Part shown: positions 18,386 through 55,266 of the stretch, one piece after another
How the letters are laid out: every line of letters begins with the position of its first letter
Position numbering within the stretch: position 1 is the stretch's first letter
Assembly (NCBI GenBank): GCA_004335835.1
Contig: RWJK01000127.1
Location: 1 to 64,000 of the forward strand
Origin: Scenedesmus sp. ARA3
Lineage: Eukaryota; Chlorophyta; Chlorophyceae; Sphaeropleales; Scenedesmaceae
Direction: 5' to 3'
DNA length: 64,000 nucleotides
The notes under the pieces: generated by a model
Told to the model about the DNA's origin: nothing
Database searches by the model: none
Seen by the model: only the letters and a program-made list of their open reading frames with translations
Program-made: the position numbers and the translations under genes

Positions 18386-19247
18386 TCACTCCTGCTTGTG
18401 TCGAAGCCCTGACACCTGTGCAATCGTAGCGCGCTCCACCCTGACAATGCGCATGGCGAGCACACCCAAGCAGCACACGCCCACACCCACATGCAGCGCA
18501 GCCTGCCGCCAGAAGCCGTGTGCGGCCAGCTGCTGCGGTGCCATGAATGCTGTGTTGGAGGCGGCCAGGCAGCCGGACACGACGCAGCAGGCAAGCAGCA
18601 CTTGACTGCTTGGCAGCAGCTGCCGTATGCTGAAGCCTGGCACTGTGGAGAAGTAGCGCCGGATGTACCTGCACGCAGCGGCGGCAGCAGCAGCAGCAGC
18701 AGCAGCGCAAAGACAGTCAGGCATTTTTTGTGCTGGGCTCAAGCAACTTCCAGCTGCCAGCTACGACAGTAACTACGCGGTGCGCAGGCTCATGTTGATG
18801 GACTCAGCGCTGCTGCCACGAAGCAAGACACCAAGAATCGGCACACACGGGCTAGGCTTACAACGAGCAACCACACAACCAACCGCCAGGCACCACGAGG
18901 CAGACACAGCACTTGAAGCCTTGTTGCACACGCAGCTGGCAGCTGCCACTCACCACAGCGAGAACGCGATGCGCACGCTCATGTTGACTGTGTCAGCCAC
19001 CAGGCAGAAACAGCACACAGACAACCTGGCAGCTGCCACTCACCACAGCGAGAAGGCAATGCGCAGGCTCATATTGACCGTATCAGCCAGCACCAGGCCA
19101 GCAGCGCCGCCAGCCTTGACCAGCACAATGCTGCACAGCACGTGTGCGGCTGTGAACACCACCAGCAGTGCATTCGCTGCCTTGAGCGCGGACGGCTCAA
19201 GCACCGCGTGCACAAACGCCTCGGTGATGCCTGGGGCATCGTGGTAC

Positions 19248-19307
<60 letters not shown>

Positions 19308-22224
19308 TGATTTACTGATGGTATTGATATTGGTCAACACTTGTCGGAGACACAGGGCAGCAGCTGCGGTTGTTGCTATGGCCTAATGGGTGGTTTGGTG
19401 ATGAGGGCAGCAGCTGCGCCAGACCAGCTGCAATACACAAGGCCATGAGGACCGTGGTGTGTGGCAGACTTGGGTGTGACAGCTGCCTACTTGCACGCAC
19501 CCATCACATCCAGCAGCTCAGCCCCACCACCCACTCACCATTCACGGCCAGCAGCAGCAGGTAAGCAGTGTAGCAGCCCAGCACAAAGGGCGCCTCACTC
19601 TCCGACCAGCGCTGCCCATACACCAGCCGCAGCAGCGTGTAGCTGTAGCAGGGCCCAAAAGTAACAGCCAGCAGCCCCAGCAGCGCTACAGCCTTCACTG
19701 CTACAGCCAGCACTGACGCCAGGGCCCCCCGTGAGGCTGGCTCAGCAGCAGCGCGCAGGCCAGCTCTGTGTGTGAGGGCAGTGACGAGGAAGCAGGGAAG
19801 GGAAGGAGAAGCGGGGCAGTGCAGGCAGCAGCAGCAGCAGCAGCACTGTCAGCAGATCTTGAGGTGAAGAGTGTCGGTGCATGTGTGGTGGACTCTGTGG
19901 TGTTTTTTGGCAGCTTCAGTGAGGCAGAATGATGTGCTTATGGTGCCCAGGCGCTGGCCATGTACATCGACAACCACGCAACACCAGAATAATCGCACAC
20001 ACAACAGCCAGCAAGTCATGCTGCACGCCACATCACTGCTGGAAGGCGGTGAAGGCCGCCTCATCCACGGGGCTTGACCAGCAGCCGCACCACTAGACTC
20101 CCAAGGTTTGCCACCACTGGCAGGCCGTAAGAAGCCCCCACATGTTACAACCGCAAATAGCGTAGCATGCCATTCCTGTGCCGCCTGCAACACCGCATGC
20201 TCTGCTGTCACTGTGTTCTGCCTACAACACCACCCACCTGCTGAAGGCGGTGAACGCTGCCTCCTCCACGGGCGTGAACAGCAGCCGCACCACCAGGCTC
20301 CCCAGGTTTGCCACCAGGCCGTACACGCCCTGGTTGTAGCTGCTCTCAAATCCAACCAGCGCCAGCTTGCTGCCCTCGGCCAGCAGCAGCTTCTCAGCCT
20401 GCGGCACACAGCGCGGACCTTGGTTGGTTACTATCTTGGTCAAGGACTTATCCGCCGATCATTTCCTGCTTGCCTGCTTACACGCAAAATGCAGTCTCTG
20501 TGTCAATAGCAGCCCACAGCAAGCAGCAGAACAGGCGTCAACAGCAGCCTGCATGCATTGTGCTAAGCCAGCTTGCTGCCCTCAGCCAGCAGCAGCTTCT
20601 CGTCCTGCGGCAGGGTGGCGGGTTAGCACAGCAAGCAGCAAAAGTAGGGCCTCAGCAGCAGCCTGAATGGTGTCTTGCCAGCTTGCTGCCCTCAGCCAGC
20701 AGCAGCTTCTCAGCCTGCGGCACGAGGAGAAACCACAGCAAGCAGAAGGTATAAAATAGACCAGAAGAAAAGCAGTACTAGGACAGCTTGCTGCCCTCAT
20801 CCAGCAGCAGCTTCTCAGCCTGCAGCGCGCACAGCAATCACAGGGCGCAGCAGCATAAGCCTTGTCAGCGAGCAAGGTGCTCGCCGAACTTGCTGCCCTC
20901 AGCCAGCAGCAGCAACCCGGCCTGCAATGCGCTCAGCAAGCAGCAGAACTGGAACCAGCCAGCAGCAGCTTCTCAGCTTCTGAGACCTCAGCACCCTCAA
21001 GGTGGCAGAACAGCCAACAGCAGCGCCCGGCCTGCATGCGCCTTCGTCACTGTCTGCAGGCCGTCAGGCAAATAGCAAGCTGCAGTAGGCGCCTTTTGAA
21101 ATTATAACAAGTACAGCGCCCAACAAATGTTGGCACAAACACACTACAGCCACTTTGCTGCTGCTGCCGCTGCCTCCGCTGCTTGCACGCACCGCTTGTA
21201 TGCTGAAGAGCCCTGTGATGGCCAGCGTCTGCCTGTCCTGACTGTCCAGCCGCCAGCTGTGCACCTTGAGCTGACCCTGCAGGCAGCACGGCGGCCAGCC
21301 AACAACAAGCATGCACAGCAGCAGGATGATACATCTGCACTGAACCTGCTCAAGGTACAGCGAGGTGTGCCCAGCTTTCCACAGCAAACTCACCCTCATA
21401 GATGCATTGCAGCTGCGTTGCAGTTGCATTGCAGCAGCATGCCTACAAATCAGTTGCTGCTCGCGCCATTCGCATAATATATGCCCAGCCACTTCAAGTA
21501 CTTCACAACAGCGCGGTGAACCCCTTGGCATCGCCCACCTGTGACCAGAGCCGCGCGCCACACCAGAGGCTGCCAAACACATACGCCAAGCTACTTCAAC
21601 AACTTCATCCTCCATGAGTACTTCCCACCTGTGCCCAGAGCTGCGCGCCGTACCAGAGGTACCCCCCCCTCGCCCAGCACCACACAGGAGAAGGCCAGCT
21701 GTGAGGCCCGCCCCTAAGCACACCACCTCATGAATGCCGAAATGCATGGCAAGAGCGTGCAGTCAGCCAGCGGCAGCTCATGTTTTGTGGACTGACTAGG
21801 TTGCATGTCCAGCCGCTGCAAAAACAACGCCAAACTCGCATCACCCACCTGTGCCCAGAGCTGCGCGCCGTACCAGAGGTACCCCGCAAGCACCACACAG
21901 GAGAAGGCCAGCTGCGAGGCGCCAAACACCAGCGCAGGCTGCAGGCTGCTCCCCAGCACCAGCAGCAGCGTCACGCCGCACTTGGTGATCATGGCTGCTG
22001 TCTCGATGCCTGCCCTGCGGCCAAACTCCAGGCGGGTGCTGGAGATGATGTACAGTGGCTCACTGGCCAGCTCCAGCACTGCTGCCACGCCTGCAGAACA
22101 GGTCAGAAGAGAAGGCAGCAGCCAATGCAGCCAGGTGGTGCATGCAGCTCAGCAATGCTCAGCAGCGCTGGTGCACGCGGCTCACTGGCCAGCTCCAGCA
22201 CTGCTGCCACGCCTGCAGAACAAG

Positions 22225-22258
<34 letters not shown>

Positions 22259-22820
22259 TGACAGCAATGTGAAGCTTGCGGCTGCACAGTCTGAGCCACT
22301 GCTAGATGTAAGACATAGCCAGCTCCAGCACTGCTGCCACGCCTGCAGAGAAGGCAGCAGGGCGGGCAGCAGGGCGCGGCATGCAGCTGAACAGCGCCAG
22401 CCACTGCTAGATGTAAGACACAGTCATCACAACCCACACAATTCCGTTGACACCCTTCGATTGAAAATGTATTGTTGCCTAACAGCCTGGTGCTGCTGTG
22501 CTGCGCCGGTCTGCTGCAGCCCCAGCCAACTTCACCCATGCTGCTCAGCCCAGCAGCTCCATACACCCTGCTGCATGTCAGTCCAGGCAATCTCTATGTC
22601 AGCATCCCTGCTGTGGCGCCACCTAGCTCCACCTAAGCTGCTGCAGCACCAGCCAGCGCACCATGAGCGACGACAGCCTGCTGGTATGCCAGGTCACCGC
22701 CCTGCGCAGCAGAGCGCCACAGCACGAAGCCACACACAGCTGTCGACAGCACCACCCCTATGGGCAGGATGGGCCATGACATGCGCAGCACACGCTCTGC
22801 CACGGTGGTTGAGCTCTCCT

Positions 22821-22852
<32 letters not shown>

Positions 22853-23561
22853 GGTGGTGTGGACACGTGCTGACAAACACAACAACATGGTGACATGGCC
22901 ACCTGAATGCCAGCAGGATGGTGTGCTGCGTGTCTGGCAGCACTGGCTGCTGGGTTGATGGGCTGCATGCGCCTGCAAGCCAGCCAGTGCTGCTCCCCCT
23001 CCCTTGCGTTGTGTCAGGCTGATACAGCTGTCTCAAACAGGCTGTCTGCGGCCGTGCAATGCTGCAGTACGCACCCTGTACTGCCTGTGGAGACGGCTGC
23101 TGCCGCCAACTTCAAGCAGGTTGTGCAACAGCTGCTGCTGCTGCTGCTGCTCATGCATCTTGCCAGTCCGCTGCTGCAATCATCTGCAGGCAGGCCGCAC
23201 TGCTGCTGCTGCTGCTGCTGCCGCCGGGTCACCTTGCTGCTCTGCTCCTCCTGGATGCGCAGGCCGCCCCGCCTGAAGCCCTCCCTGCTGAGGAATAGGA
23301 TGGACGTGGTGATCAGGTGGAACTGCACCGCAGACAGCTGCTCGCAGTGCAGCAGCCAGCACAGCAGCAGAGCAGCAGCACAATGTTGTATGCGTGCCTA
23401 ATTCAGCGCATGGCCCTACAAATGTGCTGGCGCCAGCAACAGCTCGCTGCTGAGCAACATGCAGTGCTCCAAGCAGGCAGGCGAAGCCGGCTCCCAGACA
23501 GCACAATGCACATGTTGCATCAAGTGACCAGCGTCAGCTGTAACCACTGCTGCTGCTGCTG

Positions 23562-23601
<40 letters not shown>

Positions 23602-23736
23602 CACCCCGTAGGCCTCGGGTGACAGCTGCCGTGCCACCAGCAGGTTCATGCAGAAGGTCACCAGCCGGGTAGCCACCTGGGACACTGCGGCAGCACGCAC
23701 CAACAAGTAGCAGCAAGCAGCGGCATGCAGCAACAT
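18386..23736 (-). CDS. RFT1: RFT1-family ER membrane protein (N-glycan precursor translocation), 9 exons
   Basis: RFT1 proteins are polytopic ER proteins needed for the step that brings Man5GlcNAc2-PP-dolichol to the lumen; whether RFT1 is itself the flippase is debated. Exons: 23736-23605, 23337-23233, 22818-22650, 22090-21849, 21276-21193, 20398-20238, 19765-19539, 19230-19044, 18668-18386; every junction keeps phase, giving 529 aa against about 540 in human RFT1. Family hallmarks in order: VATRLVTFCMNLLVARQL, FLSREGFRR, ELASEPLYI, the segment KLLLAEGSK leading to NQGVYGLVANLGSLVVRLLF, FGPCYSYTLLRLVYG, NGITEAFVHAV and RIAFSLW. About a dozen hydrophobic helices are visible. The start is uncertain: the ATG at 23736 gives a plausible N terminus, but the frame stays open upstream and a separate first exon is possible. 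The introns are full of duplicated exon edges. Confidence 0.93.
18949..19008 (-). repeat. Echo of the RFT1 exon 8 donor end
   Basis: A close copy of the end of exon 8 and its donor (19034-19095): the shared plus-strand text includes CTGGCAGCTGCCACTCACCA followed by the coding part. A third, weaker copy of the coding part lies at 18775-18815. Both lie downstream in the intron, same orientation. Confidence 0.8.
20037..20115 (-). repeat. Echo of the RFT1 exon 6 donor end
   Basis: Degenerate copy of 20238-20320 (end of exon 6). Shared blocks in plus-strand sense include GCAGCCGCACCAC and CCAGGTTTGCCACCA with small changes. The copy sits about 200 bp downstream in the intron and keeps the orientation. 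Confidence 0.8.
20510..20990 (-). repeat. Tandem array of echoes of the RFT1 exon 6 acceptor end
   Basis: The first 35-45 bases of exon 6 with its acceptor (20366-20410) recur at about 20568, 20680, 20784 and 20888, with a partial copy at 20959; the period is about 104-112 bp. Each copy has the core CTTGCTGCCCTCAGCCAGCA or a close variant and most keep the CTGCGGC/CTGCAGC acceptor side. The array fills most of the intron between exons 5 and 6. Confidence 0.85.
21530..21712 (-). repeat. Two echoes of the RFT1 exon 4 donor end
   Basis: Copies of 21841-21935 at about 21620-21712 (strong) and 21530-21590 (weaker). The shared part starts with the donor and last codons (CACCTGTGCCCAGAGCTGCG in plus-strand sense) and runs back into the exon. 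Both lie downstream of exon 4 in the intron. Confidence 0.85.
22186..22350 (-). repeat. Two echoes of the RFT1 exon 4 acceptor end
   Basis: The acceptor and first 25 bases of exon 4 (22066-22096) are repeated at 22186-22216 and 22319-22349, upstream in transcript sense. The block GCCAGCTCCAGCACTGCTGC is identical in all three. The echo at 22216 has its own CTG tract (22224-22256) in front, as real exons here do. A second short motif, CCACTGCTAGATGTAAGACA, is also repeated at about 22298 and 22399. Confidence 0.88.
23547..23600 (-). repeat. CAG tract immediately after the RFT1 exon 1 donor
   Basis: About 17 CAG units (one TAG interruption) in gene sense, starting 4 nt after the donor at 23604. 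Intron 1 ends in a CTG-rich stretch (about 23351-23380). Intron 2 shows the same layout: CAG at 23201-23222, CTG at 22821-22852. Confidence 0.85.
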
Positions 23737-24469: not shown

Positions 24470-27400
24470 ATGGCCCTCGCAGCACGCACAGTCAGCAATA
24501 TATTGCGGAGATGCAACTATGCTAGCCCTGCAGCTCTGAGGTGAGGAGGCAGTTCTTTGCTTGTGTGGTTGCCAGGACAGCAGCAGCCCAGGCACCAGCT
24601 CGGCTGGGTGTTGCCTTGATGCAGATCAGGCGCTAAATTGCATGTTATGTCATTGCGCAGTGGGATGGGCCGTACACTGACCACCTCCAGGGCCGTGGTG
24701 AGTCCATCGCCTTGTCCCGTGCTGGTGTTGCTGCATGTACACTTGCATGCATCCTGATCACCCAGGACATATGCAATGCCTGCAGCTTGTGCTGGATGCA
24801 ATAACAAAGTATAGTCAAACAAATGTCATAAGCATGCCGTGACAGATCACGCCCAGCGCAAGACTTCTGCAACTGCTGTGATCACGCGAAACCCTTGTTG
24901 TTTCTGAGTTAGCAGCCGGCCACATCACCCAAACTCAACACCTCCCACCGGTTCAAACACATGTTCCATTGCAGCTGGCGCCGCCTCCTGCAGTTGCAGC
25001 GGGCGACATTGCAGAGGACATCGACTGGACAGAAGACATGCCAGTGCCAGTCAAGCGGCGCGTGGCAGCGCTGCGTGAGGTGCAGGAGGATTATGACAAG
25101 CTCATAAAGCAGTTCATCAAGGAGCGCGCAGAGCTGCAGGCAAAGTACGAGCAGCAAGCAGGTACGGGGGCGACACACAGCAGCAGCAGCAGCAGCAGGA
25201 GCAGCAGCAGCAGCAGCAGAGTATGTGTGCAAATGTGCGCTCAGAAATGCGGGATGTGCCAGCTGCAGCAGCGATGGCAGGTCCGGGCGAGCATACAAGC
25301 TCAGAAAGAGAGAGTGCATTTGCTCTGCTGTGTTGTTGCCAGTAAGGATGCTGTGTCCAGCCAAGCAGATGTGGCGAAGCAGTAGTTGCAAGGCGGCAGC
25401 GGTGAGCATGCTGAGCACGCTGGCAAGATGCAGTGTGTGGTGCAGCAGCTGCATCAAGGTGGGGCAGAAGGGCAAAGGGAGTTGTTGGTGAAGTGCATGT
25501 ATTTGTGTCGGGTCAGGTTTGCTGCTGTCTGATCCCGCTTTCCCTCTGCTGCTGCTGCTGCTGCTGCTGCAGCGCCCATGATGGACAAGCGCGTGCGGCT
25601 GGTGGCTGGTGAGGAGACGGTGGGCGCATATGACATCGCAGACAGCGATGAGCCAGGTGAGGTGCAGCATAGTGTGTTGCTAGAGCAGCTCCAGGAAGCA
25701 GAGATTAGGATGGCAAGTGCTGAGCATAGCATGGTCAAATCGCAGCAACGAGCCAGGTGAGGCAGCCAGTGTGCCTCCAAAACATCTTCACGAAGCAGAC
25801 ACAGCAGAGACCAGGAAGGCTAGTAGTGGTCGCAGCATGGTTTCATGGCGTGGGCGGGGTGAGCTGGAGCACTGCAGGAGATGGCTCAGCACATCGCAGA
25901 CAGCAGCAAGCCAAGTGAGGTGCAGCACGTGAGTCAAGGTCATCGAGGCCAGAGTAGCAGACGCACAAGGGATCAGGAACTTTTATGATGGCAGCACTGC
26001 AGCAAATAGTGAGCAATCCGTGGCCTGCCCTGACGTGCATTTGCTGAGCACATGCAACACGCCACAGCCCGCCGATGCCGCGCACGCCAGCGCACATGCC
26101 GCACACACACCACCTATATAGAGGATGCTCTGCACCCTTAGACTGCTTACAATATTTACTGCATACTGAAAGTCTGCATCTTCTTATGCTGCGCAGACGA
26201 GGGCATCCCCGACTTCTGGCTGACGGCCATCACCAACCACGACCTGCTGGGCGAGTACGTGACTGAGCGTGACGCGGAGGTGCTGTCGTACCTGGCTGAC
26301 GTGCGCGTGGCCAGCCTCACCGGGGAGGAGGCGGGCAGCTTCAAGCTCACCTTCAGCTTCAGGGACAACCCCTTCTTCACGAACAAGGTGAGCCAGGGTC
26401 AAACTCTGCCAGAGGTTCCAGTGTATAGCTTGCTATCTATTGGGTCGCCAGCCTGACTGGTGAGCAGGCAGGCAGCTTCAGGCTGACTTCTAATTTGAGA
26501 AAGAAGCCCTTATGCAGCAACAAGGTGAGGGCCAGGGATAACAAGCAAACAAACAACAAAGCGTTGTACGACGAAACAACCAAACACAAAGTAACAACAC
26601 ACAAGGGAGGGCGGGAGGCGCTGCACGCCACGCTGGCTGCATCCCGCTGATGCCCTGTGTGTGATGCTGTATACGTAGTGTGCTGACTGCTTCGGTTTTC
26701 CAAAACACCCAGCTGCACTCACATGTTGACCCAGCTGCATTCCAACATGTGCTGCTGCTGCTGCCGCTGCTGCTGCAGGTGCTGGAGAAGACGTTCTACA
26801 TGGAGAACCCGGACGAGATTGTGCCTGACAAGTTTGTGGGCTGCAGCATCGACTGGGCGGCCGGCAAGGACACCACAGTCAGCGTGGTCAAGAAGAAGGT
26901 GGGGGACAAGAAGAACAAGGGCAAGGGCGCTGTGACCATCAACCAGACCAAGCCCTGCGACTCCTTCTTCAACTTCTTCAAGTGAGTGCCTTCGATCTCG
27001 TGCTATCCTGCGTGTGCGCTTGTGTGTAAATCCAGGGGTGTGGGTGAGTGCGTGCGGCGTGTGAGTGAGTGAGTGAGTGAGTGAGTGAGTGAGTGAGTGA
27101 GTGAGTGAGTAGTTTTTGAATCAACTATTGCACTGTCGTAGTTAAAAAGGTTGGGGGTTTGGATCTGAAAAGGCTGTGGCGCCCTATGATGCTTGTGTAA
27201 TTGGTGAATTCTGTTGCAGGGCCTTACGCCCGATGACATGACTGGCCACTAGGCCCACACCTGACGGCGCCACAGCACAAAACATTGTTGATATGTCGTT
27301 TTTTTTGGGTGGGTATAAGATGGCACGTCTCCTGGTGACGTTTCGCGCACATCATGCTCTCTGTGCTGCTGTCTGGTACATTCTCGTGCAGCGGCAGACG

Positions 27401-28901
27401 TTGAGCAGCAAGCTTGTTTGGTGCAGTTTCACCACCACCTTCCTTGCTGAAAAGCATGCAGTGCTTGCAGACAAAGCAGCTGCTGCATGGGCTGCCCAAC
27501 TGGCCTGTAAGCCGTAAGATTTCAGCCAGGCCCAAGGAGCATGTGGTGTGGCAGCTGCACAGCTGGCCATGTATTGAGAGTGTCACAAAGTGTCATTCTA
27601 GCTTCCTCAAGGTGTCCCCCAAGCAGCTGCTGCAGCTTATTGGATTTTGTGGTCATATTGCAGCTTTGCACGTGTGGATGCAGGAGGCTTGGCTGTTATA
27701 AAAGTGCTGCCCAGTTATCAATTGGCGCCCTATGATGCTTGTGTAATTGGTGAATTCTGTTGCAGGGCCTCGTGCCCGATGACATGACTGGCCGCTAGGC
27801 CCACACCTGAAGGCGCCACAGCACACGATGTTAATAATATGCTGTGTGTGTTGTTTGATTGAAGCAGCATTGTGAGTGCAACAAGTAGGTGTTTTCCCTG
27901 GTGATGCAACTTTGCACAGCTGCACTTGTGGGGTTGTTGGCAGTTTTGCTTGTTGCAGCCGCTGTTCTTCTGCCCTCATCAGGCTCTTGTGTGCATGGCT
28001 GGTGTGGCCTCGCCAAACCATGCCTCTGCCAAACATGCATTGCTGGCAGTCACTGATGCGCTGAGTGGCCAACACCAGCCACTGAGCTGATGCATCCAGG
28101 ACCAAGGGGCACATGCGTGGGACTCTCCTACAGCTGACCCTCTGCCTGAGATGCACCCTTTTTGCGTTTTTTTGTAGCCGTCTTTCTGTAGCAGCGATTG
28201 CACAGCTATGTGCAACAGCTGCTTCACAAGGACAGCTTCAGAAAGTGGTCACTGCAGTGTCTACTATGACTCACAAGCTGATGAAGGAGGCTAAATGTTG
28301 TTGAGCTTGATGCTCAGCTGTGCCTTGGCGCCCTATGATGCTTCCGTAATTGGTGAATTCTGTTGCAGGGCCTTGCGCCCAATGACATGACTGGCCACTA
28401 GGCCCACACCTGACGGCGCCACAGCACAGCTGACTCCTTATGCACGTAACGGCACAGTGCGTGACGTGTGTTGTTATGTTACATTTCCAATGATTAATTG
28501 CTCATCATCAGCTGGCCTTTCACTGAGTACCTGGTTGATGTTGCTTGTCTGCGCTGGTCAACATCTGGCCAGCGACATGTCCCGGTTTGTTACCTCCACT
28601 CCCACTCAACATTTCGGCATCTGGTGTCCTGTTCACCCCCTCCACCCCTTTCCCCTGCAGGACGCCTGTGGTCCCTGAGAACCCTGATGACCTCAGCGAG
28701 GAGGAGCTGGAGGCGCTGCAGCAGCAGATGGACGAGGACTACGAGATCGCCACAGCGCTGCGCGAGAGCCTGGTGCCGCGCGCAGTGGAATGGTTCACTG
28801 GGGAGGCCGCGCCACCTCTGTATGGTGATGAGTTTGATGACGGGGAGTATGGCGAGTTTGAGGACGAGGAGGAGCCGGAGCCGGCCCCTCGCAGGCGGTG
28901 A
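24470..28901 (+). CDS. NAP1-family histone chaperone with transit-peptide-like N terminus (7 exons)
   Basis: NAP1 proteins bind H2A-H2B and aid nucleosome assembly. Exons: 24470-24540, 24661-24697, 24975-25161, 25573-25656, 26197-26387, 26779-26981, 28661-28901; all phases agree, giving 337 aa. The NAP core is clear: VKRRVAALREVQ and a long helix, APMMDKRVRLV, GIPDFWLTAI, FTNKVLEKTFYM, then the acidic tail with GDEFDDGEYGEFEDEEEPEP before the stop. The surprise is the N terminus: MALAARTVSNILRRCN followed by a Ser/Thr/Arg-rich stretch (residues 1-36) with no acidic residue, which looks like an organelle presequence. It depends on two small exons that fit in phase; if they are not used, translation could begin at the ATG at 24665. 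Intron 6 (1.7 kb) holds three 94-nt repeats and a GTGAGT microsatellite. Several exon edges are echoed in introns and in the 3' UTR. Confidence 0.9.
25178..25219 (+). repeat. CAG tract after the NAP1-gene exon 3 donor
   Basis: CAG run (one GAG interruption) starting 17 nt inside intron 3. The same intron ends with a CTG run at 25547-25570 directly against the acceptor at 25572. Confidence 0.85.
25741..25930 (+). repeat. Echoes of the NAP1-gene exon 4 donor end
   Basis: The junction GAGCCAGGTGAGG (25649-25662) recurs at about 25750-25762, and the longer context CATCGCAGACAGC with GTGAGGTGCAGCA recurs at about 25895-25928. Both lie downstream in intron 4. Confidence 0.7.
26448..26530 (+). repeat. 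Echo of the NAP1-gene exon 5 donor end
   Basis: A diverged copy of 26305-26395: GCCAGCCTGACTGGTGAGCA matches the exon's GCCAGCCTCACCGGGGAGGA, and both copies end with AACAAGGTGAG. It lies about 60 bp inside intron 5, so it offers a second full donor. Confidence 0.85.
27061..27111 (+). repeat. GTGA microsatellite in NAP1-gene intron 6
   Basis: About 12-13 tandem GTGA units, 80 nt after the real donor GTGAGT at 26982. The tract is a run of overlapping GTGAGT donor consensus sites. Confidence 0.95.
27178..27271 (+). ncRNA. 94-nt intronic unit, copy 1; candidate box C/D snoRNA
   Basis: Begins and ends with GGCGCC, which can form a terminal stem. One base inside the 5' stem is ATGATG (C-box-like, consensus RTGATGA); one base inside the 3' stem is CTGA (perfect D box). 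An internal GATGA may be a C' box. In this copy the complementary ends extend to GCTGTGGCGCC and GGCGCCACAGC (27173-27276), so a MITE-like element is the main alternative. No rRNA target was identified. Confidence 0.42.
27724..27817 (+). ncRNA. 94-nt intronic unit, copy 2; candidate box C/D snoRNA
   Basis: Same length and same end motifs as copy 1. Differences are few and clustered (CTCGTG for CTTACG in the middle, CCGCT for CCACT, GAAGG for GACGG). The C-like and D boxes are unchanged. The outer left arm beyond GGCGCC is not conserved, which argues against a simple terminal-inverted-repeat transposon. Confidence 0.42.
28327..28420 (+). ncRNA. 94-nt intronic unit, copy 3; candidate box C/D snoRNA
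   Basis: Third copy, again 94 nt, with changes at TTCCGTAAT and GCGCCCAATGA, the latter altering the internal GATGA to AATGA. The end stem and the boxes near the ends are conserved. Copies are spaced 546 and 603 bp apart in the same intron and orientation. Confidence 0.42.
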
Positions 28902-28913
28902 GCTGTGAGTCAA

Positions 28914-28959
<46 letters not shown>

Positions 28960-30346
28960 ATGTGTGCTTTGTATGATGACGAGTTCGAGTATGGCGAGTT
29001 TCAAGATGAGGAGGAGCCAGAGCCAGCCCCTCGCAGGCGGTGATCTGTACCTTCGTGAGTTTGATTGCCGCTGCTGCATTGTGCTGTGTATGGGGATGAG
29101 TTTGATGGTATGTTGGGGAGGCTCTGGCTTGTTGCTGCTGAAGCTCGAGCTGCGCCTCTTGTGTTGGGGTGTGGCTGTATCGGTGTTGCTGCAGGCTTGC
29201 CGTCGAGGCCCGCAGGCAGCGAATGTCTGCTGCCTTCGGTAGGCTGACTTTTGCTTTTCTTCCAGCCCCGCGATCAGTGTGCAAGCAGCCGCTGCATACG
29301 GGTGCCCTTGTTGCGGTTGGCTTGGTTGCAGCGGGGCAGGCGGTGTCTTGTATACGCTGATGCATGGCGTGCAGCCGCAGCTGCATCCTCAGGCTGTTGA
29401 TTGGTCACCGGTCAGCTGAGCTGCCTTGGCTTACAGGGAACCCAGGGCCTGTCAGCTGCAACGGAAGCCGCCGGTGCCATTCTGTGCAGCCCATGTTGCT
29501 GCATGACCTGGTTTTACAATGCGTGCAGCTGTCAGCAGCCAACAGGTGTATGTCACACGCAGTGTATGTTTCTCGCAGCGTATGAATGCACATGTGCACA
29601 TGTGCGTGGCCATCCTGGCCTGCTGTGACAGCTTGAGCAGACTGGCATCAGCATGGTGATGTGCTGCCCTGTTTGACTGTTGATACCTTGGCTTGTGCAA
29701 CCGCCTCAGGCCATGGAAGTACTTCATGGCGTGGCTGCCAACATGTCTGATAGATGGCGCTTGGTCAACAACAGTGTCAGCGTTGTGTCATACTTGCTGC
29801 ATTTCGGCCGGCTGTTGGTGCATCTGTTACCACCCTTTAAGCAATACTATCGTCGTTATGGTGTTGTTTGTAGCCAGCCGTGTGATCTGTGCTGTGTAAG
29901 CCACGATCAAGCATGCAATGGCCCCACATGGCAACCTTGATGGATTGGCGTAGAGTGCTGACAGCATCCAGTCGCACTGATTAGACGTGTCTTTAAGGCA
30001 ATAACATACGGTCTTGTCTGCACGTGTTGTGACGATCAGCCAGTCCGCGAGTGTGTCGGTGTGTGTTGCCCACGTGGACACCACCTGCGGGCGATTGACC
30101 GTGACTCATTTTGTTACAGACACAAGGCACTGACGATCCACCAGCATCGTAACTTTGTTAAGGTAAATAAGCGACTTTTGGTCGAGCGATGGTTCCTCGC
30201 CTGTTACTTTCGTAGCCGCGCCAACCACCACTCCCGCGCACACGAGCGTGAATAGTGCGTTCAGTCAAGCGCTACAGTTGTCAGGCTGAAAAGAAACAAC
30301 GGTGTACCTATTAAACTGTGTCCATTCTGCCTTTGACCACTGCACG
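28902..30346. other. 3' flank of the NAP1-family gene and NPC2-like promoter
   Basis: Apart from the echoes near the left end, no gene is seen. A TGTAA motif on the plus strand at 29895-29899 is a candidate end of the NAP1-family transcript. The short open frames show no domain. Confidence 0.5.
28915..29110 (+). repeat. CTG tract and echoes of the NAP1-gene last exon
   Basis: Directly after the stop lies a CTG run (28915-28959), then a copy of the end of exon 7 (about 28968-29043: GTATGGCGAGTTTCAAGATG then the Glu/Pro codons and the same CTCGCAGGCGGTGA). A shorter third copy is at about 29086-29115 (TATGGGGATGAGTTTGATGG). These are in the 3' UTR, so echoes are not confined to introns. Confidence 0.85.
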
Positions 30347-39595: not shown

Positions 39596-39641
<46 letters not shown>

Positions 39642-40470: not shown

Positions 40471-40643
40471 TGTATGCATTATGTGATGCAAGTAGCGCCA
40501 TGAAGAGCGATAAACAATAACGTTTTGGACACCAGACGTGATCAGCTCTGCCAGGGGGGAACACACTAGCGCAACGCTGAAGGCAGGCACCTGCCTGCCG
40601 CAGTCCATGCACAAACGACTTGTACAACTTCATGTTGCTAAGC

Positions 40644-40667
40644 AAGGGTGACAAGCTTGTCACCCTT
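40644..40667. repeat. Perfect 24-bp palindrome
   Basis: The half site AAGGGTGACAAG is followed directly by its exact reverse complement, with no spacer. It is intergenic, downstream of the LRR-PIN gene stop and upstream of the coiled-coil gene start. Confidence 0.95.
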
Positions 40668-41094: not shown

Positions 41095-44000
41095 CTACCT
41101 AGGGCCAGCAGGCGTGCGCCCTGTGCTGCTGGCCCACTTGAGCACCCTGCTGGGCGTGTGCCGGCCCCTCACCCGCGCCTCCCACCCCTCAAGGCTCCTC
41201 TCAAGAGCAGCAATGTTGGATTGTGCCACTTCCAGCACAGAACTGCCGCTGTCGCAGCCGCCAGCAGCAGCAGCAGCAGGGGTGCAGCCGCCGCCGCTTG
41301 GGCTGCTCTCGAAGGGTGCGGTGTGCTGGTGGTCCTGCAGCAGCTGCCGCAGCTCCTGCAGCGCAGCAGGCTCCTCGCCAGGACCTGCACCAGCCGCCAG
41401 CATGCTCACCTGCAGCAGCAGCAGCAGCAGGAGCAGCAGCAGCAGCAGCAGCAGCATGGTGACACATGCTACATGTGGCGTCATGGCGTAGCAATGGAGA
41501 GCGGTTGGGCTGCCGCGGTACAACGACAAAACATGCATAAGCACTACTGTAACGGGCCCATGCTCTGTGAGTCACTGATGATATTCTGCTGCTGGCTGCC
41601 TCACCCTTGCCAGCAGCCCGCTGAGGTCTTGGTAGGCGTCCAGCAGGCCACGCGTGCAGCACACAGCACCGTCAAAGTCATCCTGCAGTGCCAAAGGGTG
41701 AATCGGCAGTAGTGTGAAGCAAGCCCGGAGGTAGCACAGCAGCACGACAGGCGCATTGGTTGGAAAGCAGGTGCAGGTAGATGATAATGCGTGTGGTTCC
41801 CTCGATAAGCATGAGATGTGAGACACATCAACTGATGTCTGCGGCAATATTTCCATACAGCTGTATGCCTGGTCAGCAGCTAAAGGCAATAGAGAACCAA
41901 GCCCTGCCGGGCAGCTGCGACAGCGCAGGCTTCATGCTCCACACCACACCACGCACCTGCAGGCTGCGGCCCGCCACCGCCCCCAGGCCTGCTGTTGCTG
42001 CTGGCGCCATAAGCTGCCGCAGCTGCCTGCTGCTCAGGTCCGCCCCTCCCTTGATCAGCTCACCCAGGGAGGCCTCAAAGCCAGCAGCACCTGGCACAGG
42101 GGCAGCACAGCAGGCGGCCAGGGGGTGGCCAGCAGCATGAGGTGGATGCTGTGTGCATGCGGCATGTGGAGTAATCAACCAATCAAACATGTGTGCGAAT
42201 GCAGTGCAGCAGGAGACAATGGCATCTGAGTGACATGATGCAGCAGAAAGCAGCCCAGGCGACTACAGATAAACATTGCTGCGTTGCCAGATACATAATG
42301 CTGTAGTTGATCTAGCTGGTGACGCAGACCCACTGCCGGTGCATACCTGCCAGTTTGAATGCAGGCAGGCCGTGCGCCTTGGCCAGCTGCAGCTGCGCAT
42401 TGTCATTCGTCACAAGGATGACCGGCTGCGCCTCAGCAGCAGCTGCCGCTGCAGCCTGCTGCTGCCGGGTCGGTGTGCAGGGTGCAGCTGCAGCAGCTGC
42501 CTCTTCTGAAGCCCCACTGGCTGCTGCTGTTGCCTCTGCTACTGCTGCTGCTGCTGCCGCCAGCAGCTCTGTCCTGAAGAAGAGTGCCACCTCAATGATG
42601 GCCAGGTCGCTGCGCTGGCCGCTGCTGCCGGCAAAGGCAGGGCTGCGGGAGCCCGCCACTGCGGCTTGCCTGCGATACATGGATACATAGTATAAGGAGT
42701 TGCTGGAAGCACGATTTTCACAAGCACAACACATACAGAGCAAACAGAGCATAGGCGAGTAATGACAGGGCAAAGGACATGTTGCCTTGAGTAGAGTTGC
42801 TGCGCTGGCCGCTGCTGCCGGCAAAGCGAGGGCTGCGGAAGACTGCCACTGCGGCTTGCTCGCAATGCACATGTGCATACAGAGCGGACGAAGCGATGGG
42901 CGCACAATCACAGGACAAAGGAACATGTTACAGCACTGAAGACCTACCAACAACGAGCCCGTCATGCGCACCATTCACAGGCATGCTTACACGCATATAT
43001 AGTACTGTTGCTGCCACAGTGCCTCACCTGTCCACCACCAGGCCTTAGTACCCTACTCCTCTTGCTGCTGCCGCTGCTGCTACTGCTTAAGGTTTGGTCT
43101 TGACCCCAACCCTCAGCCCCTGCCACCCGACTCATGCAGCGCCCAACCTGTCCACCACCAGGCCCTCGCCCTTGTCACAGCCAGCACTGCCGATTGTCTG
43201 CTGCTAAGTCGTCTGCTGCTAAGTCCAACCCTTGTCTGCCACAGCGAAAGCACTGCCCCCACCTGTCCACCACCAGTCCCTCGCCCTCGTGTGCCGCCAG
43301 CACTGTGAGGAAGTCCAGGCCCTTGGGGCCAGCCTCGTCCAGCCCGCGGTCAAGGAACCTGAGGGGAGGCGGCAGCCACACGGCACACGGTACGTCAAGT
43401 TATAATGCACGAGTTGGTGTTCGAGCACAACATTGACCCTAGTGCAGCTGCACCTTGTGGGGATGCCACGTGCTGCAGCGCATGCGCATGCATGTGCAGC
43501 AGCACGTACTGCATGCCAGGTCCAACCTTGAAAGCGTAACATGATTGTACCACAAGTAGTTGTGATGTGCACTCCGGCCTTCACTATGATGCCGACCATA
43601 GCCTGTGTGCTGCTGCTGCTGCTGCTGCTGCTGTACCACTGGTTGCTGCGCACCTACGCACGGGCCCGCCCACGCCCGCCTCTGCCGCCTTGCAGCTGTC
43701 CAGCTGCTTCAGCACTGTGTCAGCTAGCACGATGAAGGTCTGCTGCTCAGGGGCCAGGCCTGCAGCAGTTCAGCATGTTAGGGCAGCCAGAATGACAATT
43801 GAACGTTGCGGTGTTGCAGACATCACAGCCAGCACGATGAAGGTCTGCTGCTCAGGGGCCAAGCCTGTGTGTGGCAGAGAGGCGGGGGGGATGATGTAAG
43901 GCAGGCATGTCAGCAAAAACAGCAACAACGGTGGCAAAAGAAAACAGCAACCAAGGTGGCAGGCATACTGCAGTTCTTACGTGCTACATCCATGGGGCAG

Positions 44001-46631
44001 CAGACGCGGCAGGCAGCAGTACATGGCAAGCACACTGCAGTTCTGAGCTAAAAAATGGGCTCGCTCACCCCTGCCGAACCTCCCTGAGCCAGCCAGTGCC
44101 AGCAGCAGCTTCATGGTGAGGCAGGTGCCGGAGGCCACACTGCCTGGTGCAAGTGAACATAGGGTGATACAGCACTGTCTGCTAGCCAGTCAGCCGGCCA
44201 GCCAACAACAGCCACAGCCACGCAGCAACCCAACTGATGTTCTGAGCAGAACCAACCATTTGGCAAGCTGAGGGCAACAAAAGTGGACAAAGCCGCACCC
44301 AAACCAGCTCACTCACCCCTGCCGAACCTCCCTGAGCCAGCCAGTGCCTGCAGCAGCTTCATGGTGAGGCAGGTGCCTGAGGCCACACTGCCGGGGCAGC
44401 CCAGCATGGACAGGAAGGCTGAGGTGTCCACAAACAGCATCAGCGGGCCATCCTGGTAGGACACTGCAGCGCTGCTGCTGCTGCTGCTGTCGCCGGCTGG
44501 CTCTGCCGCTGCAGATAAGTCCGGGGTAGCTGCTGCTGAGAATGAGACGCGGCTAGGTGGCGGCGGCTGGGGCTGTACTGCATGTGCTGGGGGAGGTGGG
44601 GGTGGAGGGGGCTGCTGCTGCTGCACGAATGGCAGCGTTGCAGCGTCATCCTGCTGCTGCCGCACGCCTCCTGCACACTCAGCTGACATAGCTGCTACAA
44701 CAGCAGCCATCCTGCCACCACTGCCACTGGCCAAAGATGCCGGCGTCGCCGCCTGCTGCTGCTGCTGCCGGCGCTGCTGGGAGCTGTCGCCGGCAGCGCC
44801 ACCTGCTGCTGCTGCCGGAGCTTTGGCCCAGATGGCCTTTGCTGCTTGCAGGACTGCTGCCTCTGCTGGTGTTGCGCGCTGGCAGCTGAGCCAGGGCATC
44901 TGCACGTGCACCTGCTGCCAGGGCAGCGACCACACCAGGTTGAGCTCCCTGCCCCTGCTGTCGGTGCGTGTGCGCTGCTCCACTGGCAGCTCCTTTGCAA
45001 TGTCCACCACCAGCTTGCGCGCAGCACAGTCCTGCAGGAGGCATGAAGGAGCAGGCAAAAGTAGCACAGACGTAGAACCTTGGTTTAAAAACTTGAAGGA
45101 ATGGGTTCTGTAACTTGCAGCTCCTTGGCAATGTCCACCACCAGCTTGCACGCAGCACAGTCCTGCAGGCGGTAGAGACCAGGATCAGAAAGACAAGCAG
45201 GCGCGCATAACTTGATATCCTGCAGCTTGTCAAGGGTGAGGGCACTGCAAAAACATGCACACAAGGTGAAGCCGCAAGCACAGCTGCAGGCAGACTGCAC
45301 CCGCTGCTCAGGCCAGCGCAGCACGCTTTGCGGCCACATTGCCCTACATGCCAAATGAATCCTTCCATTACGCAAGCACATACGGTCGTGCTGCTTCGGC
45401 AGCAATCGCATTGTTGCAGCACGGCCTATCAGTGTCCAGTCATAAAACTCCTGCATCCATGCAGTGTGGCTAACCAAAAACACGCACCTGCTGTATGTAG
45501 CGCCGCAGCTCCGCCTCATCGATCTGGTTCCACTCCACGCGCAGCCACAGCGGCTTGGCGCCACGCGCGCGCTGCAGCGGCACGGCCCCCAGCAGCGCCT
45601 TGGCGCCCGCTGCGCTGATCTGGTTGTGGCTCAGGTGGATCTCTGTGGTGACGGGGCCTGCGGGATTTCAGGTGTGATGATACAAAGATTAAGCCGATGT
45701 TGGTGCAACGGCAGATGCGTAGAGCTGCAAATGATTGACAACAATGCTGGCTGTTTGAAGCTGGTGATCAGTCGATGCCTGCCTAGTGAAGCAGAAGAAG
45801 CACAGTGCCAGCACAGCAGCAGCATGTGGCTGAAGCAAGCGGTGCTCACCTATGAGTGGTGCCAGTGCTGCCGCTGCGCCGTCGCCCAGTGAGTTGTCAA
45901 ACAGCCACAGCTTGGCGAACCCCAGGCGCTGCGCGCCCGCACTGCTGGCATACCAGCTGGCGATCACCCGGGCCTGTGGGAACACAGCAGCAGTAGCGCG
46001 TGCGCACAGCAGTTGGTGTTAAGAACTTGATGAGACACACGGTGGAGAGACACACAGCACTAGATGGCCAACCAGGGTTTGAAAACGTCAGAGCCGTTGG
46101 ATATCTACTGTTGTCGACTTAGCCTGCTGCCCATAAAAACATCCCTGTGCACAATCGCTGCCATTTCAATGTGCAGGCAACGCGTCCATTCCGTCAGGTT
46201 CTGCCCTCAATCACCCACCGGCACGATAAGTCATGCTGGGAGGACTTGCAGGTCAACCTGTATCCACAGAAACACAGTCCATGCAGAAACGCTTGTAGAG
46301 CACATCAGTCTTAGATACACACACCAACGCACCTCTTTGTCTGTGAGCCCCTGCTTCTCCAGCCTCAGGCTGACCAGCAGCTGCGCCTGCTGCTGCGCCT
46401 GCCACCGCTCACGCTTGCGCTCACCACGCCGCTGCTTGGGTGGCCGCTGGCTGCCCACCCCTGCTGCTGCTGCTGCTGCTGCTGCTGCTTCCTCCTGCTC
46501 CTCGTGCTGGTATTCGCCAAGCAAGTCCTTCTCTTCTGCTGCTGTCAAAGCAGTATCCATGGCTGCTGTGTCAGACTCGTCTGAGCTGCCTTCCTGCTCT
46601 TCCTCAGAGCTGCCTTCATCCCCCTGCCCTA

Positions 46632-46662
<31 letters not shown>

Positions 46663-48748: not shown

Positions 48749-51700
48749 ATGCTGCAAAAATTCAGAAACCGTATAAATGCTACGCGTTTTGAGTTTACAA
48801 TACATGTGCACACGCTGCAGCCATGGCCTGCTGGCTCAAAGGCAGTGGCCATCGGCTGGCAGAGAGGCAAGAGGAGGCGTGGAGCGACCAGCAGCGTGCT
48901 GCCACTGCCGAGCAAAGACAAGCTGGGCACTGTTGTGCGCCTGAACGAGAAGTTCACGCTCACCTCCTCTCTGTACAAGGTGCGCTGCACAGCAGCAGGC
49001 TGGGGAGAGTACAGTAATTTGAAGCCCTACCAGGGACATGGGGCCCTTGCATGCAGTGAGCACGTGATGTTGTTACATCTTTGATACATCTTCTAGTTGC
49101 AGGATTGACATGCATTGCTGGCAATGCAGGTGCCTGGCGCCGACCGCAACAGCCAGTTGGGTCCGTTCAAGAAGAAGTGCCTCATCCTGGCTGTGCTGGA
49201 GACAGATGGCCGGACACACGCCACAGCAGCACTCGGCAGGATTGTCATTGACCTGTCAGAGTTTGCTTCCATTGATGGTCAGGAGCTGCGCACATTTGCA
49301 GTGGCTTGCAACAAGTCCATCCACGCAGCTGTTGGCGAGCCTCACCTGACTGTCACCATCAGGTGTGTTGCAGGACAGCAGGCAGGGCAGCAGAGGGTTT
49401 CAACATGGCTGCGAGACGTGTCAGCAGCTGAAAGGGGTGTCCTGCAAGCTAGGTGCAGCTGCCCAGAACAGCCTACTGTGGCAACTGCCGTGCAACTGAC
49501 GAAACCCCAGTTGCATGACAGCGCAGCTTGCCTGGTACAAGGCACACACAAACACCCAGGATTGCAGCTGGCATGAAGGTTTGCATCAGCTTTTGCATCA
49601 ACAGGCTGCAGCGCATGCTGTGCAGTTGACATGATGATGCTTGAAACACGCAGCCAGTTGCAGCTGCTGACGTGCTTGCTCAGAGGGTCGTGTGTGCCAG
49701 AATGTCAGCAGTGCGTGGTCAAGGCAGTAGCCCGGCGCCGCAACAGCCGTGTTGGCACGCTAGGCCAGCCTTGCAGTTTGGGGTTCGTCTGTGCAGCACA
49801 TAACAAGGCGCGGACTCTGCTGTCACTCCTGCTGCTGCCAGGTGCCACTGGAAAAAGGCTGGTGCTGACATGACAGAGGATGAGGTGGCATCCATGAGCA
49901 CCGACACAACAGGTGCGGCAGCTGGCCCTGGCACACAGCTGCTGGGGGTGCAGGGGCAAGACGCAATAGCCAGTCAGCAGCATTTACAGCAGCAGCAGGA
50001 GGAGCAGCATCTGCAGCAGCCATTTATATTTCAGTTTGAGTGCTTGTTGTGCAGTCTGCGCGCCAACACCAACAATTCAGACCCACTCACTCTGCGTATC
50101 GCATTGCTGCTGCCGCTGCTGCTGCTGCTGCTGGCGCCAGGCTCTGGCCTTGCCACCAACATCCGCGACTTCTTCAGCCTGGGGAAGGGCGCCAAGGCCA
50201 ACAAGCGCACAGAGCAGGACCTCAAGGGCTTCGCGCCAGGCCAGGGTGCGTGGCTGTGGTCGGCCGGCTAGCTGGCTGGTGGCTGTTGCAAGCAGCACAG
50301 CAGCACACTGCTGCCACAGATTTGCAGCAGCACACAAGGCAGTGCGGCAGCTGCAATGGCTCAGTAGAAGACTTGCCGCGCATTGGGGCAGTGACACGCT
50401 GGAACAAGCAGGACACGGCACACGAGGAGCGCTTTGTAGCAGCTATTTGATTGCCGAGCGAGGCAGCGTGTGCTGCAGATATGTCAGACACCTTGCTGCG
50501 CATCACGCGGTCACTGCTTCTGCTCAAGAACTGCCATGGCTGCTGCATGCGTGTGCGTTGCCGTGCCGCGCTGCTGCAGGCGGCGACACGAGCATGGCCA
50601 CCATCGGGGAGGACGAGGGCGGCGAGGACGAGGGCGGCGGCATCCGCAGCAGGCAGACGCGCATCAGCAGCGGCGACGGCGGCGCCAGCAGCGGCAAGGG
50701 CTTCCAGGAGGCGGAGGACGTGGACTTTGACAGCAACAGGGGCAGCCTGTGAGTGGGGAGGCGGGCTATGCGTGTGCTTGAATGCGGGGGTTGAGGGTCT
50801 AGGGCCTGCTTGGAAGCAGAGGACTTCGACTGGACAGTAACAGGGGCAGCCTGTGAGTGGGGTGGATGCGTGCGGTCAATGCAGGCTGCTGTTGGTGACG
50901 CCTGGCTGTGCTGTGCCTGGCAGTGGTTGGTGAAGCAGCAGGGAAAAGGGAGCATGTTCTGCATTTCACTCAATTGCTCATTTGGGTGGGTGTGCTGCTG
51001 CTGCTGCCGCCGCTGCTGCTGCTGCTGCAGGGAAGGCTCAGGTTGGGGTGCGCAGGACTTGGAGTATGACGCAGTGGGCGCGCTCAACCTGCACGACGAC
51101 GACGAGTTCTCGCCAGCGCAGCGGCAGCAGCACAGCAGGCCGGCGCAGTCGCCATCACCACACCAGCAGCAGCCGCCACCACTGCCGCTGCCGCCGCAGC
51201 AGGTGCCGGGCTACAGCAGCAGCATGGGGCCGTCATCTGTGCGCAGCGTTGGCAGTGGCGCCGCTGACGGCGCAGCAGCGCCGGCTGGCCCTGCAGACAT
51301 GGCAGCAGCAGGCAGCAGTAGCAGGTGAGCGGTGTTACGCAAGCAGCAGCAGAGCAGCTGAGGCAGCCCTGCAGTTGTCCGCGTGTGTGCTACATAGCAG
51401 CAGGTAGATATTTGCACAGGGCAGCCATTGTGGATGGCAGGGGCAGTGATGATTCTGGCGCCTACAGCATTGCAGGCAGCTGGTAGCTCGGCCAGGTTGC
51501 GTTTCTGTCGGACTTTCCTTGCACTGCTGCCTGACCTGTTTGCTGTATGGCTTGTGCAGGCGCTGGCGCATGGAGGGCGTGGATGCTGCTGGTGCTGCTG
51601 GGCTGAGCCGCAGCATGGAGAAGAGCAGCTCACGCAGCTCGCGGCCCAGCAAAACCATGTGAGCAGCAGCAGCAGCAGCAGCACGCAAGGATGCAGGCAG

Positions 51701-54700: not shown

Positions 54701-54995
54701 GCTGGGCGCGCTGCGGCAGCAGGCCGGCGGCGCCGACGTCAGCGTGCCGCCGCGGCTGCAGGTGGAGGGCGAGTGCACCTACTACTCGCCCACCGACGAC
54801 ATGGCCATGGAGAAGGTGCGAGGAGGGGAGGCAGGCGGGATGTGGCGCTGTGTGGCTATGGCGTGGGCAGCCTGCTTGTGTACGCTGTGTCGTGTGCTGC
54901 CTTGAGCTGCAGGAGCTTTCCACATGAGGCACAAGATGTGGCACAGGATGTCGTCGACATCATTGCCTCTGACTCTGCCTCACCGATGGTGCCGC

Positions 54996-55030
<35 letters not shown>

Positions 55031-55266
55031 GTCTGCTGCTGCTGCCTGCTCAGGTGGAGGTTGGCGAGGAGCCCGGGCTGGAGTACGACGCTGACAGCGA
55101 GGACGAGCTGGACGCGCTGGGCGGGCTGTGCGGCGAGCCGTCCGCAGGGCTGCCGCTGCCGCTGCGCTTCAAGCTGCTGCACAACCTGTGGGGCGCGGGC
55201 GTGCCGCGCTCGCGGCGCATCACCATCGTGCGCGCGGAGAGCGGCGCGAGCACGGGGCTGATGTGA
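48749..55266 (+). CDS. NT-C2 (EEIG1/EHBP1-type) and dilute-domain protein (15 exons)
   Basis: Probably a membrane-trafficking or organelle-tethering adaptor. Exons: 48749-48979, 49130-49362, 49842-49912, 50141-50245, 50580-50748, 51031-51324, 51560-51658, 51864-51933, 52245-52385, 52602-52793, 52994-53248, 53456-53763, 54139-54304, 54621-54815, 55054-55266; all phases match, giving 913 aa. Residues 1-160 form an NT-C2 domain (FEFTIHVHTLQPWP, LNEKFTLTSSLY, GRIVIDLSEFASID, HLTVTI). Residues 160-430 are a charged, Ser/Gln-rich linker with NIRDFFSLGKGAK. From about 430 a dilute/myosin-V-tail-like region follows: RGLATWWSNAVHLRGFLQ, FIFDELVSYVWTHTFVP, EVMKRMDTLIFHFLI, FQQWAFGEGG, LPTLVFMLNRFQPDDF. 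No motor domain is present. Land-plant proteins pairing these two domains exist; their exact roles are poorly known. CTG tracts precede many acceptors. Confidence 0.87.
49975..50020 (+). repeat. CAG-rich tract in NT-C2/DIL intron 3
   Basis: CAGCAGCAG-rich stretch in the intron 49913-50140, which ends with a CTG tract (50106-50132) before the acceptor; another intron with complementary tracts. Confidence 0.7.
50815..50868 (+). repeat. Echo of NT-C2/DIL exon 5 donor end
   Basis: The exon 5 end and donor (50716-50765) are repeated about 92 bp downstream; the shared core is AACAGGGGCAGCCTGTGAGT. Both copies carry a complete GTGAGT donor. Confidence 0.88.

Follow-up and report, generated by a model that had tools for sequence, protein, structure and literature searches.

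The window analysed here, 64,000 nucleotides of Scenedesmus sp. ARA3 (contig RWJK01000127.1; C70, one of the 1567 contigs of an 87.3-Mb assembly), carries among others genes for RFT1, a NAP1-family protein, an AAAP transporter, a PIN-domain protein (LRR-PIN) and an NT-C2/DIL protein, whose introns contain copies of the edges of their own exons. We call such an intronic copy of a neighbouring exon's edge, ending just past the splice site, an echo, and the working exon live. Exon-edge echoes are real and strong, and they are spread across the genome sample, which comprised the 64-kb window and 111 kb of arbitrary stretches from other contigs, 175 kb in total (labels C1200, C1328 and L005-L030 denote contigs or loci outside the window). 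Runs of N occur in three of the fetched stretches (6402 bases in C1200, 1366 in L010 and 11 in L006). Light-harvesting loci were added later, after an echo had been seen in one of them, and are excluded from the frequencies, which refer to the first 175 kb only. Gene models were made with our own hidden-Markov gene finder, trained without labels on the 175 kb; unsupervised, it converged on the donor CAG/GTGAG and the acceptor CTGCAG/ (the slash marks the exon border), and it called several echoes as small exons. Pfam supports the NAP1-family (NAP), AAAP (Aa_trans) and PIN-domain (PIN_4) models.

RFT1 is the sole gene model that was compared with a protein of another organism. Its product is nearest to OEZ85_012938 of Tetradesmus obliquus (87% over 68% of the query), and its exon pieces map to T. 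obliquus at 89-100% in 8 of 10 cases, the remaining two overrunning the exon ends; this makes the alga a close relative of Tetradesmus within the Scenedesmaceae. In a protein search with the SNF2-like gene, none of the shortened names among the best 120 matches reads Tetradesmus. Echoes occur at 5 of the 18 edges, 4 of the 18 borders used not lying exactly on the splice consensus, and the edge scores are bimodal, with these five at 64-93 and the other 13 at 14-25, while the reverse complement gives at most 28. The repeated segments are absent from the T. obliquus RFT1 protein in this protein-level comparison. In the lists below, z refers to the resemblance of the intron flanks.

18954..19005, minus strand: donor-edge echo of 19044-19230 (46/52; flank partly duplicated too, z 3.2)
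19044..19230, minus strand: live RFT1 exon (tblastn, T. obliquus P0001)
20036..20116, minus strand: donor-edge echo of 20238-20398 (71/79 with two 1-bp gaps; donor GT lost)
20238..20398, minus strand: live RFT1 exon with echoes at both edges (tblastn, T. obliquus)
20567..20601, minus strand: acceptor-edge echo of 20238-20398 (34/35)
20677..20714, minus strand: acceptor-edge echo of 20238-20398 (37/38)
20784..20819, minus strand: acceptor-edge echo of 20238-20398 (34/36)
20889..20925, minus strand: acceptor-edge echo of 20238-20398, more diverged (86% over 37)
20958..20977, minus strand: acceptor-edge echo remnant of 20 bp (20/20)
21528..21569, minus strand: second donor-edge echo of 21849-22090 (88% over 42 columns)
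21629..21707, minus strand: donor-edge echo of 21849-22090 (70/72, gaps of 6 and 1)
21849..22090, minus strand: live RFT1 exon with echoes at both edges (tblastn, T. obliquus)
22179..22212, minus strand: acceptor-edge echo of 21849-22090 (34/34)
22318..22342, minus strand: acceptor-edge echo of 21849-22090 (25/25)

The acceptor echoes of exon 20238-20398 at 20567, 20677, 20784 and 20889 follow one another at about 105-110 bp. In the PIN-domain gene, one exon likewise has echoes at both edges; for this exon and for RFT1, the coordinates quoted in the first-pass annotation of this DNA were correct.

42347..42642, minus strand: exon of the PIN-domain gene (gene finder; PIN_4)
42796..42832, minus strand: acceptor-edge echo of 42347-42642 (34/37; intron flank similar too, z 5.8)
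43148..43189, minus strand: donor-edge echo of exon 43263-43358 (37/42; flank z 3.8)
43826..43864, minus strand: acceptor-edge echo of exon 43654-43759 (37/39)
44069..44147, minus strand: donor-edge echo of 44317-45031 (76/79)
44148..44316, minus strand: spacer between the live edge and its donor echo (sole genome match is itself)
44317..45031, minus strand: LRR-PIN exon with echoes at both edges (gene finder)
45113..45162, minus strand: acceptor-edge echo of 44317-45031 (47/50)

When every exon edge of the sample was compared with its own intron at a score of at least 44, an own-side echo was present at 39 of 329 edges. The corresponding controls gave 1/329 for the reverse complement, 13/1634 comparisons for other genes and 3/806 comparisons for exon interiors, and these controls exclude chance; edges recur in their own introns far more often than exon interiors do. 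The other side of the same exon yielded 11/326, and the intron segment at the junction, compared with the remainder of its own intron, 10/332. The first-pass annotation had held that the copies are never inverted, that copies of donor edges lie downstream and those of acceptor edges upstream, and that this is a property of the genome rather than of a gene family, and each of these statements is borne out by the sample. Local repeat pairs were direct in 110 cases and inverted in 1, with spacings that peak at 100-140 bp (35/110) and again at 180-260 bp (26/110). Where the exon continues beyond the repeat, 55 of 61 pairs are concordant (31 acceptor edges upstream, 24 donor edges downstream), and some of the 6 discordant pairs involve exon models that are echoes themselves. 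At least one echo was found in 12 of 28 gene models, including RAD16/SNF2-like and light-harvesting genes on other contigs. Echo-bearing introns are longer, with a median of 514 vs 258 bp (n=25 vs 156), although a longer intron also leaves more room for a match.

The raw repeat list held 57 edges with 144 matches. Matches were dropped if they ended more than 6 bp from the junction, had less than 70% identity (matches to masked repeats fall here) or spanned fewer than 24 columns, as were exons extending less than 12 bp past the copy; visual inspection removed a further 8 predicted exons that looked like echoes or seemed unreliable. This left 34 edges (hereafter families) with 52 copies; one model that was kept, L010 6457-6745, probably begins too early, the live exon more likely starting near 6575. 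The exon part of an echo usually measures 25-112 bp and has an abrupt inner end. Identity to the exon is about 90% up through the splice consensus, after which similarity drops sharply: donor echoes are identical at positions +1 to +5 in 14, 13, 13, 10 and 14 of 15 cases and at +6 in 6 of 15, and acceptor echoes at -1 to -4 in 18, 18, 17 and 17 of 19, down to 7 of 19 at -10. The copies do keep their splice sites, as had been noted earlier, in 48 of 52 cases (GT in 22/25, AG in 26/27). At the inner ends, splice motifs are not enriched, CAG being found in 4/25 (background 0.217) and GT[AG] in 6/27 (background 0.242).

Three layouts recur, namely live exon, spacer, echo and then unrelated intron; the mirror image of this at acceptors; and arrays, as in L027 and L030, with spacers that are copies of one another and an outermost flank that is no such copy. 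In these two arrays the outermost echoes are near-identical to the exon (26/27 in L027, the first 29 bases in L030), and past the consensus the outer flank is unrelated. Measured at the most distant echo of every family, flank resemblance gave z >= 3 in 5 of the 34 families (one of these five, L010 6457 donor, being a doubtful coding case), 2-3 in 6 and < 2 in 23. As 11 of 34 families have a flank z of at least 2, which is above chance, duplication across the junction appears to have occurred. Compared with other introns, the flank of the nearest echo gave z values of 12.0 (C1200 59203), 10.6 (L005 1252) and 13.5 (L010 5072), and within arrays flank z reaches 21.9. Edge identity and flank similarity are decoupled (rho -0.02 over 34 families), edge identity being 0.906 at flank z >= 3 vs 0.904 at z < 2. 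Some arrays are genuine products of repeated tandem duplication, the unit being an edge together with its spacer, and in the six array pairs with alignable spacers (C1200 59203, L005 1252, L027, L030, C1328 1504 acceptor and L010 4629) edges with 35/340 and spacers with 59/558 differences diverge at equal rates, in a hand-pooled tally that omits eight other multi-copy families whose spacers are of unequal length or hard to align. Three spacers searched against the whole genome match only their own locus or its tandem copy, and 34 spacers compared with about 199 kb gave, beyond their own locus, only matches of 15-35 bases.

The differences between exons and echoes follow the reading frame: of roughly 1007 sites per codon position, 56 differ at the first, 50 at the second and 187 at the third (raw ratio 3.5). 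The same holds among echoes, a comparison in which the live exon takes no part: 25/405, 24/400 and 81/400 at positions 1, 2 and 3 (third vs first plus second, 81/400 vs 49/805), counted over pairs that lie within 14 families and are therefore not independent. The echo-echo ratio is 3.3 raw, with a lowest bound of 2.2 when the 14 families are bootstrapped, and 4.0-4.4 when stratified by base or neighbouring base (family-bootstrap intervals within 2.6-8.8); summed over the same 14 families, the exon-echo ratio is 3.9. The signal is uneven, the SNF2-like family L010 5072 contributing 2, 2, 20 echo-echo differences at positions 1-3 and RFT1 exon 20238 contributing 0, 2, 0, and in the window alone there are only two echo-echo differences, the exon-echo ratio being 4.8. 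A third-position mutation bias is ruled out by the stratification on base and neighbours; change in the six aligned spacer pairs is 0.108 at G/C and 0.103 at A/T, hence no base bias that would mimic the third-position excess. Third-position G+C is 0.838 for exons and 0.812 for echoes, against a value of 0.554 for introns.

By codon, exon-echo changes comprise 156 synonymous, 98 missense and 4 stop changes, where neutral expectation is 74, 178 and 5.5. Stops and frameshifts are not depleted, on small numbers; likewise 5 of 15 indels are multiples of three, which looks neutral. Because stops and indels look neutral, selection acting within the intron is a less likely origin of the synonymous excess than functional exons are, and the depletion of missense changes alone fits copies that leave a functional exon already carrying synonymous differences and then decay freely. 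The coding-like variation of copies that are not used suggests repeated renewal from the working exon. The exon-echo relation resembles, by analogy and not as a clock, that between the light-harvesting paralogues L020 and L021, whose exons are 92-98% alike and whose introns are unalignable beyond the consensus, and which may be under codon bias and conversion. Introns stand at many different positions among the light-harvesting paralogues (L018-L021, L009, C1328 L022-L024), and an intron of L021 after GWDTA is missing in L020, suggesting rapid intron turnover among them.

Given these observations, we tentatively favour, at somewhat less than an even chance, a duplication that spans the junction, with exchange in a diverse population renewing its exon part from the live exon. 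Short tandem duplications, often with a spacing of 100-140 or 180-260 bp, would arise over splice junctions, and the spare edge would be tolerated since it is spliced out together with the intron. Such an edge would form a short homologous block adjoining a constrained exon, which gene conversion or unequal exchange, in a diverse population with sexual recombination, could keep rewriting from functional versions of the exon. The intron parts would have no such anchor and hence diverge, so that only the edge and its splice consensus would remain recognisable and the echoes of one exon would differ mainly synonymously, and arrays would result from later plain tandem duplication of edge plus spacer. 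We infer in this that duplication gave birth to most families, that exchange takes place and that the population is diverse.

A Wright-Fisher toy simulation was run with one live and two spare edges, nonsynonymous change being lethal only in the former. Echo-echo ratios stayed near 1 when there was no exchange, and were 1.0-1.5 (exon-echo at most 2.0) when exchange operated but individuals did not recombine with one another. Strong exchange together with recombination, at a third-position diversity of 0.18-0.32, produced echo-echo ratios of 2.0-6.8 and exon-echo ratios of 3.4-14.7, the class into which the observed echo-echo divergence (third position 0.20, first plus second 0.06) falls. Two other accounts of the pattern were discarded: decay at half rate, with the constrained exon side lasting about twice as long, predicts a modest step at the junction, whereas similarity drops from about 90% almost to background, and second-order selection, in which bad echoes are copied back into the exon, yields a ratio of at most about 2 in simulations without recombination between individuals. 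Several points weigh against exchange-renewed duplication. The simulated ratio stays at 1.0-2.1 under weak exchange or lower diversity even with recombination, and synonymous diversity of about 0.1-0.3 would be required in the runs that fit. With recombination, the simulation puts exon-echo ratios at 1.2-2.2 times the echo-echo ratios, roughly double in the runs that come closest to the data. The two observed ratios are close (3.5 vs 3.3, or 3.9 vs 3.3 when both are taken over the same families), and the model therefore fits imperfectly and only in part. The lethality of nonsynonymous changes makes the model a toy, and no exchange event has been observed. Furthermore, equal divergence of edges and spacers in the six array pairs makes renewal invisible on that time scale, and the near-identical outermost echoes with unrelated flanks of L027 and L030 also fit copying of the edge alone.

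Such edge-only copying ranks next, as an unlikely but substantial competitor: a local process would copy only the exon edge, through the consensus, into the adjacent intron, perhaps by template switching or repair at a site bound by the splicing machinery, with flanks that were never homologous and arrays added later by tandem duplication. It would account for the abrupt loss of similarity around donor +5 and acceptor -4 to -6, for the outermost echoes of L027 and L030, for the confinement of three tested spacers to their own locus and for the lower recurrence of junction-side intron segments than of exon edges (10/332 against 39/329). It does not predict flank homology, seen at z >= 3 in 5/34 families and at 2-3 in 6 and rising to 21.9 in arrays, and the three- to fourfold third-position excess between echoes would be unexpected unless the source population were very diverse. 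To our knowledge, no enzyme makes splice-bounded copies of this kind, which also counts against it. A version of splice-bounded copying in which the copies sample functional alleles, making introns an archive of exon variants and exon borders hotspots of recombination, appears rather unlikely. Plain tandem duplication across junctions followed by neutral decay, the model of the first-pass annotation, we consider improbable. The longer introns with echoes, the true arrays, the flank homology of some families and the joint divergence of edges and spacers in the six array pairs speak for intron growth by tandem duplication, but under this model flanks should diverge at most about twice as much as edges, and most flanks are near background where edges are at 88-100%; neutral decay moreover predicts no codon-position bias between echoes. 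For most families here the model is contradicted. As the model predicts that the intron at the live exon resembles that at the echo, and z is below 2 in 23/34 families, it is not the whole story; simple duplication is incomplete as an explanation, and exchange-renewed duplication is favoured over it.

An assembly artefact, in which pieces of several strains or haplotypes had been joined, would explain why echo and exon relate to each other like diverged gene copies, with exons alike and introns not, and the contigs listed are all longer than 10 kb, so that shorter ones may be missing from the assembly. We regard it as quite unlikely, for RFT1, the SNF2-like gene and the three spacer queries each match a single locus, with no second haplotype among these, the arrays of three to five units are regular, and the window holds no N, the joins between edge and spacer sharing little or no overlap on inspection. 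Still less weight attaches to echoes that function in place as alternative exons or splicing decoys, which is highly improbable: GT and AG are retained and the substitutions are coding-like, but the inner ends carry splice motifs only at background level, which makes the role as alternative exons suggested earlier unlikely, stops and frameshifts are not depleted (on small numbers), and the T. obliquus RFT1 protein has no repeated segments.

Concerted evolution by conversion or unequal exchange would leave copies more alike than neutral flanks of equal age; edge and flank are indeed decoupled, but the six array pairs diverge equally in both parts. Echoes share with mutually exclusive (tandemly duplicated) exons that exon sequence is repeated alongside in direct orientation; there, however, the copy is bounded by an acceptor and a donor, whereas echoes hold an edge only, with the second splice site at background. 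Introner elements are introns that share sequence with other places, related sequence occurring in many introns, whereas here the three tested spacers are unique in the genome and the similarity is to the adjacent exon. Intron gain of the AGGT type, to which a relation had been proposed, needs an exonic duplicate whose AGGT provides both new splice sites; this relation falls away because echoes cross a junction that already exists, the original GT or AG persisting in 48/52, and there is no evident new intron. A possible exception is L010 6575-7045, which may be an intron gained by coding duplication, the presumed intron start after 6745 aligning with the coding sequence of the second copy.

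The nearest published case among the literature matches listed is a single junction duplication in the potato RdRp gene, where one recent tandem duplication across an intron-exon border made a new intron (Ma, Lan and Niu, 2016; PMC4974935). A direct repeat across an intron-exon border is likewise what we find, in 34 families with 52 copies, duplicated over an existing junction (the 3' splice junction in potato) with the splice signals carried along. Unlike in the potato case, dozens of edges spread through the genome sample are involved, mostly with no evident new intron and mostly with unrelated flanks. A related system, as described in PMC4974935, has in common with echoes a short direct duplication within a gene that is neutralised by splicing; the unit found here instead extends across a junction already present, and the echo terminates in a donor or acceptor of its own. 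Small tandem duplications at DNA breaks (PMC8355091) are a plausible source of short direct duplications, but by themselves they account neither for the way echoes stop at the splice consensus nor for their synonymous differences. Among the literature matches listed, which largely leave subscription papers and preprints outside their coverage, no description of a genome-wide pattern of exon-edge echoes was found.

If exchange-renewed duplication holds, about 1 in 8 of the sampled exon edges (39/329) would adjoin recombining copies of itself, introns would have a route of growth tied to splice junctions, and dead sequence could come to look coding. Echoes are also a trap for gene finders, as the small exons called here illustrate. 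A single algal lineage, for which close relatives exist, would then allow tests of how introns grow, of duplication linked to junctions and of exchange between live and dead copies.

In three further genes of the window the following exons and echoes were recorded.

26197..26387, plus strand: NAP1-family exon (gene finder; Pfam NAP)
26444..26524, plus strand: old donor-edge echo of NAP1 exon 26197-26387 (61/80)
28661..28897, plus strand: NAP1-family exon (gene finder)
28971..29039, plus strand: donor-edge echo of NAP1 exon 28661-28897 (59/66)
35480..35500, minus strand: short echo of donor edge 35615-35635, AAAP transporter gene (95% over 21; Pfam Aa_trans)
50812..50865, plus strand: donor-edge echo of NT-C2/DIL exon 50580-50748 (85% over 55)

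The old NAP1 echo differs from its exon at 2, 4 and 13 sites of codon positions 1, 2 and 3. The AAAP echo lies under both the frequency and the family thresholds (0/7 edges at a score of at least 44), and the NT-C2/DIL gene, whose model has no Pfam match, has an echo at 1/25 edges at that score, which falls below the threshold of the raw repeat list. Six genes had originally been named as echo-bearing, and five of them stand (RFT1, NAP1, LRR-PIN, NT-C2/DIL and, weakly, AAAP). The sixth, PAN, which we take to be model 9988-17069 outside the range 18386..55266, has an echo at 0/14 edges at a score of at least 44, and the PAN piece has no Pfam match; this model contains a plain 49-bp tandem pair (10918-11017, 98% alike), and its other repeats are low-scoring and in both orientations. 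Inside one intron region of the NAP1-family gene, a 103-bp element that is not an exon edge by the gene models occurs three times in direct orientation (27177-27279, 27723-27825 and 28326-28428; 93-96% identical). CAG/CTG runs mask 2335 bases (about 2.3 kb) of the 64-kb window, in which gene models have long runs of Q, A and S, and L008 6798-7019 is a perfect coding-like minisatellite with a period of 27 bp that repeats a nine-residue motif.

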